47,142 bases of DNA from Candidatus Krumholzibacteriia bacterium (GTDB lineage: Bacteria; Krumholzibacteriota; Krumholzibacteriia; WVZY01): assembly GCA_029863805.1 (NCBI GenBank), contig JAOTUR010000003.1, positions 1 to 47,142 on the forward strand, read 5' to 3'. The notes beneath the pieces are model-generated. The model worked only from the letters and a program-made list of their open reading frames with translations, was not told the origin of the DNA and searched no databases. The translations under genes were made by a program, and so were the position numbers. Each line of letters opens with the position of its first letter. The first letter of the stretch is position 1. This document shows positions 23,685 through 32,037 of this stretch, piece after piece.

Positions 23685-23804
23685 TTATCCACAGCCGTCT
23701 AGATTGATGTTGACAAATCGGCGCGGGCTGTGGAAAACGCATAATCTATTTTACAACAAGAGGTTGAGAAGATCAGGCGGGAAGGCGCTGGGGGTTTTTC
23801 CACA
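23685..23804. promoter_or_regulatory. Cluster of three DnaA boxes away from dnaA
   Basis: TTATCCACA exact (23685-23693); TGTGGAAAA (23729-23737) and TTTTCCACA (23796-23804), each one mismatch; in intergenic DNA. Confidence 0.5.
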
Positions 23805-23914: not shown

Positions 23915-23933
23915 CTCTCACACACGGTGAGAG
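23915..23933 (-). terminator. Stem-loop after the selenoprotein gene (weak terminator)
   Basis: Minus strand CTCTCAC-CGTGT-GTGAGAG, followed by CTCAATTTGTTTG; about 10 nt after the stop. Confidence 0.45.
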
Positions 23934-23943
23934 GCTAGACCGC

Positions 23944-24159
23944 TCAGCTCCCTCCGAATCCGATCGTGACCTCCGAGCCCACGACGATGACGGGCACGTC
24001 CCGAACCCCTTCAGAGTGGGTAAGCATCTCATCGAGGGCTGCTTGGTCTTTCTTTACATCTTTGTACTCGACGCTAAAGTCTCGGTTTGCGTAGTCCTCA
24101 CGGGCCGCGTTTGTGTAAGGTCAAGTATCCTTCCCAAAAATCAGTACTCGCTTGGCCAT
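23944..24159 (-). CDS. Glutaredoxin-like selenoprotein of the Uxx-star type, UGA (24121-24123) read as selenocysteine
   Basis: Minus ATG at 24159 reads MAKRVLIFGKDT(UGA)PYTNAAREDYANRDFSVEYKDVKKDQAALDEMLTHSEGVRDVPVIVVGSEVTIGFGGS*. The UGA sits where the first Cys of a CPYT thioredoxin-fold motif belongs; AGGGGGAG Shine-Dalgarno at plus 24166-24173; hairpin follows the UGA. Confidence 0.88.
24089..24108 (-). promoter_or_regulatory. Putative bacterial SECIS hairpin
   Basis: Begins 12 nt after the UGA: GCGGCCCGUGAGGACUACGC; GCG/CGC base plus CC/GG upper stem, loop CGUGA with G about 20 nt from the UGA. Irregular stem, folded by hand. Confidence 0.5.
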
Positions 24160-24364
24160 GTTGAGCTCCCCCTGTATACGGGTGCGATACACCGCGCGGT
24201 TGTGAGACATGTCCATCGAGCTGTGCTCCGCGCGCGTGTGGGTGAACCGATCTCGCAATTGCCGCCACGGTTGCCGAAACGCCGGTACGGGTGGTCGAGA
24301 CGTGTTCTCGTTTCAGGCATGCAGGATAGAACGAAAGGCATTCAACGGCAAGAGCCAATTACGC

Positions 24365-26460: not shown

Positions 26461-28542
26461 ATGTTCGGGCTCGGTTTTCTAAACAGCTTCTTCTTGTTTG
26501 CGCTCGCGGCGATGGCGTTGCCCATCATCATTCACATCCTCAATCGACGGCGTTTACGCAAGATACGTTTTAGCTCGCTAGAGTTTATCGACGAACTGAG
26601 TCGGCGCAGAATGAGCAGAGTCAACCTGCGCCGATGGATAGTGCTTCTATTGAGGACGCTTGCCGTCACTTTCGTCGTTCTCGCCTTTGCTCGGCCTACG
26701 CTCCACAGCAGAGCGGCTCTTTTCATGCCTGCTGCTGCGGCCAAGCAAATTGTCATATGTGTTGATATGAGCGCGAGTATGGGGGTGGAGCGCGAGACCG
26801 GTACCGCGTTTACCCAAGCGAAGATCCTTGCCAAACGTGTCGTTGACGAAAGCGCAAGGAATGATGTGCTCAACGTGGTCGCGTCATCAGGATCGAGTCG
26901 GTTGCTTTTTGAGAGTGGAACCACGAATAAGCAGATCGTAAAAAAAGCGATCGACGGGCTCGAAGTTGCCGACGAACGAGCCTCTTTGACAAAGGCGCTG
27001 GAAACGGCGGTGGGGCACTTTCGTGAGTCGGAGCTGCGCAGCGGCGAGATCTATGTCGTATCCGACTTCAGAGAAACGGCGGATTCGCTTCTTGTCTCCG
27101 GGACGCCGGCCGGATTGAGAGTGATCCTGCTCCCGGTCTATCTTGAAGCGGTTGACAACGTCAGCATCGATCGTGTGTTCACGCCCCGTAAGCTCATAAG
27201 ACCAGGCGAAGTGGTTCGCGTCGGGGTGTCTGTCACCAACCATTCCCGCGAGAACCCAGCAGAGTTTCCCGTGGAGCTGTTCATCGACGAAAAGCGCAAG
27301 GCCGAGAAATTCGTAAATCTTTCACCGGCGGCTTCGGCCACGGTTACGTTCTCTGTTTCGATAAACGACTGGGGTAGCCACAGGTGCCGGGTGGCGAAAA
27401 ACAGGGATCGTCTACCGATAGATGACGACCGGTTCTTTATGTTGGACGTGTCGCGTCGCATCCCGGTCACCTTGATGCGTGGTAAGAGATTCGTCGAGGA
27501 TGACAAGCAGACAGCGAGCTATTTTTATGTCGACAAAGCCCTCAACCCACGGGGCTCTGGAGAAAGCGAGTTCTCGGTAAAAGTCGTCGACGAGAAGGAC
27601 CTAACCACAGCCGCGCTGCCAGATCGCGGTGTCGTGGTATGGACCGATCCTCATCGGCTCGACCGGAATCGGTTTGAATTGCTAAAGCGTTACCTCCACA
27701 CTGGTGGACGGCTGATGGTCTTTCTGGGCGGAGGTAGTAGCGGACAGTGGCGGGAGGATGGGTTTGCACGGTATTTCGGCATTAAAAAGGCGACCCACCG
27801 AAAAGCGGAAGAATCGCTGCGGTCTTTTCAGAAAGATCACCCGGTTTTTAGTATTTTCAACGAGGAGGAATTGGAGCTGCTGTCACGGAGCCGAGTTCGT
27901 GAGTATATCGCTGTCGCCGGAGTCGCACCCGATTCCATTCTGGCGTATCTTGGCAGCGGTGACGCGGGGATTTGGGAGTGCAGACGAGGGGACGGGCGAG
28001 CAGTCGTGGTGAGCGCCTCACCCGATATGGCGAGCGGTGATCTGCCGTTGTCACCCATGTTCTTGCCGTTGATTCATACCACCGTATCGTACTTGGCTAG
28101 CAGCGAAGGCGCCGAGTTTCACCGCGAGAACTATCCAGGAACGGACTTGTTTTTTGACCTGCCAGCGGGCTGGAGGCGGCAGGGCCACGAGCATCGTGTG
28201 GCCAATGAGTTGGGCGAGCAGGAGCAAGCGGTGTTTTTTGATTTGCCGCACGGCGAGACCAAAGCCATGATCTCGCGGCCCAAGCGCGTGGGATTCTACA
28301 AACTGTTGGCGGACACGACGCTGGTGTCCGAAGCGGTGGTCAACGTCGATACGCGAGAATCCAATCTGAACCCGCAAGAGCTCGCGGGCGAGTATCTTGG
28401 CGATGCCACCGTCGTCGACGACTCGGCGGATTTTGCGACAACTCTGCAGAGAGAAAGGCAGGGCCGCGAGATTTACCCATTGTTCCTCTTGGTGGCGATC
28501 TCGGCGCTTGTCCTGGAGTCTCTTTTGGGTCGTAGGGCGTGA
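26461..28542 (+). CDS. BatA-type membrane protein with VWA domain
   Basis: MFGLGFLNSFFLFALAAMALPIIIHILNRRRLRKIRFSSLEFIDEL; VICVDMSASMGVE; C-terminal TM. Confidence 0.92.
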   Translation: MFGLGFLNSFFLFALAAMALPIIIHILNRRRLRKIRFSSLEFIDELSRRRMSRVNLRRWIVLLLRTLAVTFVVLAFARPTLHSRAALFMPAAAAKQIVICVDMSASMGVERETGTAFTQAKILAKRVVDESARNDVLNVVASSGSSRLLFESGTTNKQIVKKAIDGLEVADERASLTKALETAVGHFRESELRSGEIYVVSDFRETADSLLVSGTPAGLRVILLPVYLEAVDNVSIDRVFTPRKLIRPGEVVRVGVSVTNHSRENPAEFPVELFIDEKRKAEKFVNLSPAASATVTFSVSINDWGSHRCRVAKNRDRLPIDDDRFFMLDVSRRIPVTLMRGKRFVEDDKQTASYFYVDKALNPRGSGESEFSVKVVDEKDLTTAALPDRGVVVWTDPHRLDRNRFELLKRYLHTGGRLMVFLGGGSSGQWREDGFARYFGIKKATHRKAEESLRSFQKDHPVFSIFNEEELELLSRSRVREYIAVAGVAPDSILAYLGSGDAGIWECRRGDGRAVVVSASPDMASGDLPLSPMFLPLIHTTVSYLASSEGAEFHRENYPGTDLFFDLPAGWRRQGHEHRVANELGEQEQAVFFDLPHGETKAMISRPKRVGFYKLLADTTLVSEAVVNVDTRESNLNPQELAGEYLGDATVVDDSADFATTLQRERQGREIYPLFLLVAISALVLESLLGRRA

Positions 28543-28546
28543 ATCG

Positions 28547-31500
28547 ATGTTGCAGGCCAAGAGCAGACTGACGGAGGCGGGGACCGCGTCGCTCGTCGAG
28601 CGCGTGGCTAAGCAGGCGCAAATTGTACAGATCCGGCGCCTGGTCGAGGAAGGCTGTCGCCGCATAGATATTCGCGGTCTGGCGGGCTCATCACCGGTCT
28701 TTGCAGTGGAGGCGCTGAGGAGATTGTTGGGTAGGCCTGTTGTGCTTTGTTGTACCGATGAGGAGAAAGCTCGGGATTCTTGCTCTGACCTGGAGACGAT
28801 TTCGGAGGCCAGGATAACGCTCTTTCCCGAGAAGGATATTTTCCCGCAACCGTTCGAGCCAAAGGAAAACCTCGTTGTCCGCGGCCGCAGAAACGCGTGC
28901 CTGGATCTTATTCGCAAAGGGGAGGTCGACGTTGTCGTTACGACGCTCCTTGGTTTTCTTGAGAAAACAATTCCCGCCCCTGCCCTTGCAGCGCTGACCC
29001 TGGAGTTCTCCACCGGCGACCGGATCGATCTGGACGAGTTGGTTGAGCACCTTGTAACCGTCGGTTACGAGGCCACGAGTATTGTCGATGAAATAGGACA
29101 ATTCTCCGTTAGGGGGTCGATCGTTGATATCTTCGACCCTTCTCGGGCCCACCCGATGCGGCTCGAACTCCTCGACGATGAAGTGGTGTCGATTCGTGCG
29201 TTTGATGTCGATTCACAGCGTTCCATCGAGCGGCGGCAAACCTTTCGCGTCCTGCCCGCCACCGGTGTATTGGTCAACGAACGCTCTTTGGAAGGGCTGG
29301 AACGCCACCTGCAAGACGCACAATTCCGCGATGGGACTATCGCGCAAGTCCGGCATGAGATAGAGCATCACCGTTCTTCATATCTGCTTCGGCGATACGC
29401 TCCCGCCATGGGAATGGATGGGACACTCCTCGACTTCTTCGATTCACCGCCGCTCGTGTTCTTCTGGGACGAGACGGGTCTGGGGAAGACACTGGAATCA
29501 CTGGAGAGCCAATTCGAGAAAGTTAAGACGGTAGCCGGCGAGTACCCCCTGTTGGGTTTCCAGGAGTATATGCATCCCGTCGATTGCTACACGTCGTACG
29601 AAACACCCAGTATTCACCTTTGGAGTATTGCAGTCGCGATGACACGAACGGGAACTTCAGGGCAGCAGACGTCGACCGAGAAGAAACTCGATGTACCCGA
29701 GAATGTCATAGTTTTCACACAACCGAGCACCCGACCGTCCTGGGAAAAGTGGAATCGCTGATTCGACTCATCGGCAGCCTCTCCAAGAAGGCTGTTGACA
29801 TACTGATTTTCTCGGAGAGTCCGGCGCAGCGTGAACGGCTGGCGGACCTTCTGGAAGATGACGAGCAGCTGGTTCATTTGCCGGTGGGTTGGGTTACATC
29901 TGGTTTTGTTTGGGAGCAAGCAGGAATGGCGCTGCTTACCGACCACGAAATTTTTCACCGCGCGCTCCCGCGGCCATCTGAAAAACAAAAGGTCCGCAGA
30001 GCAAAGAGTCCCGACCGAGAAGCCCTGCAGATAGGCGATTTTGTTGTGCACGTCGACTACGGAATAGGGCGCTATGTTGGTCTCGAAAGGGTGAAAGTGC
30101 GTGAAGGAGAAACCGAGTGTCTTAGTCTACGGTATCACGGAGCCGATCGCATCTTTGTCCCGCTCGATCAGATGATCCTCGTAGAGAAATACATAGGGAA
30201 AGACGGTGCTGTCCCGGCTCTGGACCGCTTGGGCAGCTCTAAGTGGCAACGCACCAAGGCACGGACAAAGAAAGCACTCGAGGCCGTCGCGGGCGAGATG
30301 CTCAGGGTCTACGCCGGTCGAGAGATTGCCACCAGCAAACCGTTTGCAGGCGACACCCCATGGCAAAAGGAATTGGAGGCCTCGTTTCCCTTCGAGGAGA
30401 CACCTCATCAACTAAGGGCGACCGAGGAGATCAAACGTGACATGGAAACGTCGAGGCCGATGGATCGCCTGGTTTGTGGTGACGTCGGATTTGGCAAGAC
30501 CGAAGTGGCTATTCGTGCCGCTTTCAAAGCGGTAAATGGGGGGCGACAGGTTGCAGTACTCGTACCGACAACGATACTCGCATTGCAGCACTACAGAACG
30601 TTCCAGGAGCGGATGTCGTCGTTTCCAGTTCGCGTCGAGATGTTGAGTCGTTTCAAGACACCATCCGAGCAGAAGACGATTGTTGAGGAGCTACGAAAAG
30701 GGGTGGTTGATGTTGTCGTCGGCACGCACCGCTTGCTCTCTAGGGATATCGAGTTTAATGACCTAGGACTGCTAGTCATCGACGAGGAGCACCGTTTTGG
30801 TGTGCGCAGCAAGGAAAAGATCAAGAAGATCAAACACGCCGTCGACGTCTTGTCGATGACAGCTACGCCGATCCCTCGCACGCTCTACATGGCGCTCTCG
30901 GGTCTGCGACCGATGTCTGTAATCGACACGCCACCACGTAATCGTCATCCGGTGAAAACTGAGATCGCGACGTTCGACGAAGACACTATCGTGCAGGCGA
31001 TAACTTCAGAGACAGCCCGAGGAGGGCAGGTGTTCTTTCTTCACAATCGAGTGGCATCCATATACTCGATGCAGGCGTTTCTAGAGAGATTGATGCCAGA
31101 GTTGAGGTTTGGGGTGGCGCATGGCCAAATGCCGGAACGGCAACTTGAAAAGACGATTTCAGTGTTCCTTGACAAGAAATATGATGTGTTGATATCGACG
31201 ACGATCATTGAGTCGGGGCTTGATTTCCCGAACGTCAATACAATCATCATCAACCGCGCCGACCGCTTCGGACTCGCCGATCTCTACCAGTTGAGGGGGC
31301 GTGTTGGACGGAGAGAGAGACAAGCGTACGCGTATCTGTTTATACCCAGAAACTTTATGATCACCGAAAACGCTGACAAGCGCTTGCAGGCGATGGAAGA
31401 GTTTGCCGAACTGGGTAGCGGTTACCGGCTGGCCATGCGCGACTTGGAGATCCGCGGAGCCGGGAACATTCTCGGCGTAGAGCAGCACGGGCAACTTGTC

Positions 31501-32037
31501 GCGGTCGGTTTTGATCTCTATTGCAAGATGCTAAAGGAGGCGATCGAGGAGCTAAGTGGTGAAGACAAGGCCGCCCCCACGCCGTGCCGGATCGAAACCC
31601 GCTTGAGATGCTATTTGCCCGAAGCCTACGTGGAGGATCAGAACGAGCGGATGGCGCTTTACAAACGCCTCGCGCGACTGGAGAGCCCGGCTGAGGTCGA
31701 TGATGTCGAAGCCGAGCTGGCGGATCGCTTTGGCGCACCGCCCCCGGAAGCCATTAATTTGGTGTCGGTTACACGGCTTAAGCTTCGTGCGATGACCCTC
31801 GGTATCGGGCTTATTCAGTTCAGACCCCAGCGGATTGTGGTAGAATTTTTGCCTGGAAGGGCGCTTCTTCCACAGGTGTGTGCCCGCATAGTTGAAACTT
31901 TTGAAGGTCGCGCATTGTTCAAATCGGGGGATACGTTTGGGTTGACTGTGACCGGCCCGGCGAGTGGGTGTGGTCTCGAACAGGCCAAGATACTTCTGGA
32001 TGTTGCCATGGCCGCATCATCGGACTATAGTCGCTAG
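28547..32037 (+). CDS. mfd: Transcription-repair coupling factor Mfd, interrupted by an apparent -1 frameshift near 29711-29716
   Basis: N-terminal part (28547-29761): [76 protein letters not shown]-terminal part (ORF 29584-32037): [66 protein letters not shown]. Combined length fits Mfd at about 1163 aa. Confidence 0.93.

Follow-up and report, generated by a model that had tools for sequence, protein, structure and literature searches.

According to the textbook rule, a bacterial SECIS element lies within the coding sequence. The constraints published for such elements are a loop of 3-9 nt placed 16-37 nt after the UGA, a G in the first two loop positions, and a stem of at least 4 bp (PMC13188914). 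The table of the same 2026 review contains NF041114 as 'Distant Grx-like protein 1 (UXX-star selenoprotein family 1)', with a UxxT motif and two selenocysteines (Sec) (PMC13188914). A two-Sec family is already known, and the gene described here is a further member of it. Judging from the name and the length of the model, 'UXX-star' very probably stands for a Sec-x-x-stop ending. The gene is located in a 47,142-nt stretch of Candidatus Krumholzibacteriia bacterium (contig JAOTUR010000003.1), the whole of which is referred to below as the window. To the known family it adds evidence for a SECIS in the 3' UTR and a corrected gene model.

Gene Model and Family Assignment

The first-pass annotation had proposed an unannotated Uxx-star glutaredoxin-like selenoprotein of 71 aa on the minus strand, with a single Sec at codon 13, a GFGG-type C-terminal ending and a gene end at 23944. 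The frame with its in-frame TGA at codon 13 (24121..24123) is indeed present in the sequence, its start codon is the ATG at 24159, and the Shine-Dalgarno-like AGGGGGAG (24166..24173, minus strand) lies, as had been reported, six bases ahead of the ATG; a purine-rich stretch is found at this position in four relatives as well. The end of the gene had to be revised. An x-V/I-stop pattern is kept past codon 72, so the complete gene occupies 23935..24159 (minus strand) and has 74 codons plus TAG, with two Sec codons instead of one. Reading each TGA as Sec gives the translation MAKRVLIFGKDTUPYTNAAREDYANRDFSVEYKDVKKDQAALDEMLTHSEGVRDVPVIVVGSEVTIGFGGSUAV, a product in which cysteine is absent. U13 sits in the U-P-Y-T active site. 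The second TGA, codon 72 (23944..23946, minus strand), is followed by GCG GTC TAG, which places U72 in a C-terminal U-x-x-stop tail (GFGGS-U-A-V-TAG). The TAG at 23935..23937 (minus strand) is the first unambiguous stop.

The family search suggested in the first-pass annotation gave a clear result. The 71-residue form scored 107.5 bits with NF041114 (positions 1-67 of 70) and the Pfam Glutaredoxin match reached 38.4 bits, scores far from what chance would give. Adding the residues U-A-V raised the NF041114 score to 115.4 bits, against a cut-off of 72, and completed the model (positions 1-70 of 70). A structure model built from a 54-sequence alignment had a mean pLDDT of 94 and showed the beta-alpha-beta-alpha-beta-beta order of the glutaredoxin topology with a short tail at the end. 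Its best PDB matches were glutaredoxins, with TM values of about 0.75-0.78, along with the thioredoxin-like protein BC3987.

Homologs and Conservation of the Two UGA Codons

A scan of genome contigs yielded 55 homologous genes, or 56 counting the gene of the window. Their records are labelled Latescibacterota, Acidobacteria, Methylomirabilota, Deltaproteobacteria, Armatimonadetes, and Planctomycetota, the nearest named ones being Candidatus Latescibacterota metagenome genomes, and identity to the 53 aligned homologs ranged from 51 to 73%. No relative of the gene was found among the IMG/VR viral contigs. Codon 13 is TGA in 49 of the 56 genes and a Cys codon (TGC or TGT) in the other seven, a ratio that is not an unbiased census, as the search patterns demanded conserved peptides. 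Codon 72 is TGA in 53 of 56, with Cys, Ser, and Gly occurring once each; conservation of the tail Sec thus equals or exceeds that of the Sec in the active site. The combinations at codons 13 and 72 were U-U (48 genes), C-U (5), C-C, C-S, and U-G (one each). The four relatives from the taxonomic family of the host keep both TGAs.

After codon 72, one residue, then Val or Ile, and then a stop follow in every gene, the stop being TGA in 27, TAA in 17, and TAG in 12. The conserved ending of the family is therefore GFGG(T/S)-U-x-(V/I)-stop, longer than the GFGG-type ending proposed at first. Such conservation would be unexplained if translation truly ended at codon 72, and this codon is almost certainly, on these comparisons, a second Sec codon. 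Amino acids downstream of the first UGA are likewise kept through to the end in the relatives, and the Sec/Cys column at codon 13 is the one that the first-pass annotation had expected. Two homologs deviate from the common pattern. In L076, from Acidobacteria, codon 72 is GGA (Gly) and a strong hairpin is still present; the tail Sec may be dispensable, or the codon may hold a base error, so that this is either a recent loss or an error. L048 has UGYT where the others have UPYT, and no strong hairpin was detected after its UGA-72.

Candidate SECIS Elements

Downstream of the second UGA, the window contains the candidate SECIS 2, CTCTCAC-CGTGT-GTGAGAG (23915..23933, minus strand), which lies entirely 3' of the stop codon. 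Its CGUGU loop begins 17 nt past UGA-72 and is closed by a 7-bp stem of -8.4 kcal/mol, all within the published constraints; the local fold had -13.2 kcal/mol (z -1.9). A hairpin of -5 kcal/mol or lower followed UGA-72 in 49 of the 52 genes with Sec72, where dinucleotide shuffles expect 8; these counts are uncorrected for relatedness, and the best hairpin was picked per sequence, with the same freedom given to the shuffles. The 5' arms of the 49 hairpins comprised 31 different hexamers, and pairs 1-5 were nevertheless kept in 49/49, each by three to five types of base pair. This pattern argues strongly for compensatory change in the stem. In 47 of the 49 genes the stem lies wholly past the stop codon. 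Of the by-products of the analysis, this covariation evidence that a bacterial SECIS can lie in a 3' UTR is the most interesting.

The RNA after the first UGA is constrained in another way. In most Sec13 genes it reads GCNGCCCGUGAGGAYUAY, and the candidate SECIS 1 of the window, GCGGCCCGTGAGGACTACGC (24089..24108, minus strand), presents a GUGA loop 19 nt past the first Sec codon. In 46 of the 49 Sec13 genes Arg20 is encoded by CGT, a codon used at 13 of the 171 remaining Arg positions of these genes (Fisher p about 1e-31); Ala19 is GCC in 47 and Glu21 is GAG in 48 of the 49. Among the seven Cys13 genes, only one uses CGT for Arg20; judging by this codon usage, the synonymous constraint is relaxed where codon 13 encodes Cys. 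The likely shape has CC-GUGA-GG at the top, then an internal loop, then a lower stem. For the latter, 35 of 49 genes allowed codon 18 to pair with codons 23-24 in one or the other of two registers, as against 22 ± 3 when codon 18 was shuffled.

A strict scan for contiguous 4-bp stems after UGA-13 gave 1 of 48, with about 4 expected by chance, and the 64 nt after UGA-13 folded alone no better than shuffles. For this reason, the case for SECIS 1 rests on the frozen codons and the pairing counts. The first-pass annotation had proposed a check for SECIS elements, and its outcome was divided: the hairpin after UGA-72 agrees with the published constraints, whereas after UGA-13 a fitting loop and spacing go with a short stem, and the 30-nt piece (-5.1) misses the energy threshold of -7.5. 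Rfam, at gathering thresholds across the window, matched no family.

Selenocysteine Machinery and Gene Neighbourhood

The genome of the window is a draft metagenome assembly of 3.68 Mb in 404 contigs, 87% complete. All four Sec genes, whose presence the first-pass annotation had wanted examined, were found: selA (475.6 bits), selD (364.7 bits), tRNA-Sec with the anticodon UCA (67.6 bits), and selB in pieces at contig ends, its N-terminal part at the extreme end of contig 70 (283.5 bits) and its C-terminal part as a weak match on contig 172. None of the findings that the annotation had named as speaking against a selenoprotein was encountered. The selD gene (L039, 3488-5032) itself contains Sec at an in-frame TGA in CAG-U-ASK, a UxxK motif; 20 nt downstream of this UGA there is a hairpin of 7 bp with the loop GGG. 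Over its cut-off in 56 of 58 related genomes, selA is near-universal among the relatives, whereas the NF041114 gene exceeds its cut-off in only five of 80 genomes of the phylum and is confined to one taxonomic family, that of the host.

The gene stands alone between a bactofilin gene (accompanied by M23 peptidase, ParB, and ParA) and a MoxR gene (accompanied by DUF58 and BatA). This slot is shared by L044, L045, and L046, with BatA and DUF58 unmatched in L046; the contig of L048 ends short of the bactofilin side and covers the slot on the MoxR side. There is no operon partner indicating a substrate. Two further observations concern the window itself. At 23685-23804, in the gap between bactofilin and the selenoprotein and near parAB, there are three DnaA-box-like sites (TTATCCACA, TGTGGAAAA, and TTTTCCACA), an origin-like arrangement. 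The mfd gene (transcription-repair coupling factor; 28397-32037, plus strand) is apparently broken up into a pair of overlapping frames, 28397-29761 with UvrB_inter and 29584-32037 with CarD/DEAD/TRCF, which appears to be a frameshift or an assembly error.

Alternative Explanations

Could the protein carry only one Sec, at codon 13, and end with 71 residues at GFGGS? In the window, ParB, DUF58, BatA, and a beta-helix gene all end normally in UGA; termination could therefore conceivably occur at codon 72 as well, and part of the product may end there. As the sole reading this is very improbable, in view of the x-V/I-stop pattern of all 55 homologs, the Cys at this position in homolog L065, the conserved hairpin at SECIS spacing past UGA-72, and a family model that extends three residues further. 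A decayed glutaredoxin pseudogene, or a sequencing error giving UGA for a Cys codon, might be suspected in a draft assembly of so many contigs. It is contradicted by the homologs, as genes from several phyla have TGA at the same codon 13 and in the four relatives both TGAs recur in a gene occupying the same slot, its amino acids conserved to the end, and we regard it as extremely unlikely. Least probable, to the point of being negligible, is a genome-wide reassignment of UGA, for instance to Trp or Gly. Two in-frame UGAs within one gene would suit it; several neighbouring genes terminate in TGA, which contradicts it, as do the presence of tRNA-Sec, SelA, SelB, and SelD and the appearance of Cys in homologs at the UGA-13 column and, once, at the UGA-72 column.

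An explanation of greater weight, although still an unlikely one, accepts the two-Sec protein and takes the Secs to be ligands in the handling of selenium, a metal, or a metalloid instead of parts of a redox enzyme. Sec in UXX-star proteins may be a metal-binding ligand according to the 2026 review (PMC13188914), and the UPYT motif has no second nucleophile. On the other hand, the glutaredoxin fold and the active-site position are retained, and in the taxonomic family of the host no neighbour (bactofilin, M23, ParB, ParA; MoxR, DUF58, BatA) is related to metals. The function of the two Secs is probably that of a Sec-Sec redox pair.

Proposed Mechanism and Significance

We are highly confident, from the sequence data, that the locus is a stand-alone gene for a cysteine-free, glutaredoxin-fold selenoprotein of 74 residues with two Secs. 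Sequence evidence establishes UGA-13 and UGA-72 as sense codons under selection, the end of translation at the TAG after U72-A-V, and a constrained RNA after each UGA with its apical loop 17-19 nt away. SelB with Sec-tRNA would decode each UGA from its own SECIS, and failure at the second would leave a 71-residue form without U72. In the Sec-Sec redox pair, U13, which belongs to UPYT and opens helix 1, would be the attacking selenolate in a thiol-disulfide or peroxide-type reaction, its target being a disulfide, a glutathione adduct, or a peroxide. No further sulfur or selenium nucleophile is available in the protein; U72, carried by the short C-terminal tail, could therefore be the partner of U13, forming a Sec-Sec bond that resolves oxidised U13. 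Alternatively, U72 might hold a metal or metalloid jointly with U13.

A wider proposal is more doubtful and is offered only tentatively: that bacteria routinely decode a C-terminal Sec from a SECIS wholly in the 3' UTR, that one short mRNA combines two SECIS designs (a GUGA loop in the coding region and a mostly G-rich loop in the 3' UTR), that Sec13 and Sec72 form an internal redox pair, and that selenium determines the choice between 71 and 74 residues. With UGA used twice for Sec, ordinary gene finders miss or truncate the gene, and even readers that get past the first UGA are prone to halt at the second. This very small protein, with two Secs and no cysteine, would be a clean test case for Sec-Sec chemistry.

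Comparison with Known Systems

The product shares with UXX-star family 1 (NF041114) the full-length match, the UxxT motif, the two Secs, and the small single domain. There is no substantial difference; the tail is UAV here and UGV in most relatives. The Uxx-star subfamily NF041212 has the same fold and was also matched over its cut-off (88.3 against 66). UXX-star families 2 (NF041211) and 3 (NF047338), again of the same fold, remained far under their cut-offs, at 46.8 of 100 and 45.2 of 97. In the HUGP/GUXX-star fusion NF045501, the C-terminal domain (164-236 of 236) matches our product end to end, but the HUGP part is absent here and the score was 59 of 325 bits. Classical glutaredoxins, among them cGrx1 and cGrx2 of Clostridium oremlandii, share the fold and the first Sec/Cys position; they differ in having UxxC, CxxC, or CxxS motifs and no C-terminal Sec tail (PMC13188914 and general knowledge). 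The protein family of mammalian thioredoxin reductase is unrelated, and the likeness is one of working principle only. In that enzyme, the tail GCUG carries a C-terminal Sec next to an internal redox centre.
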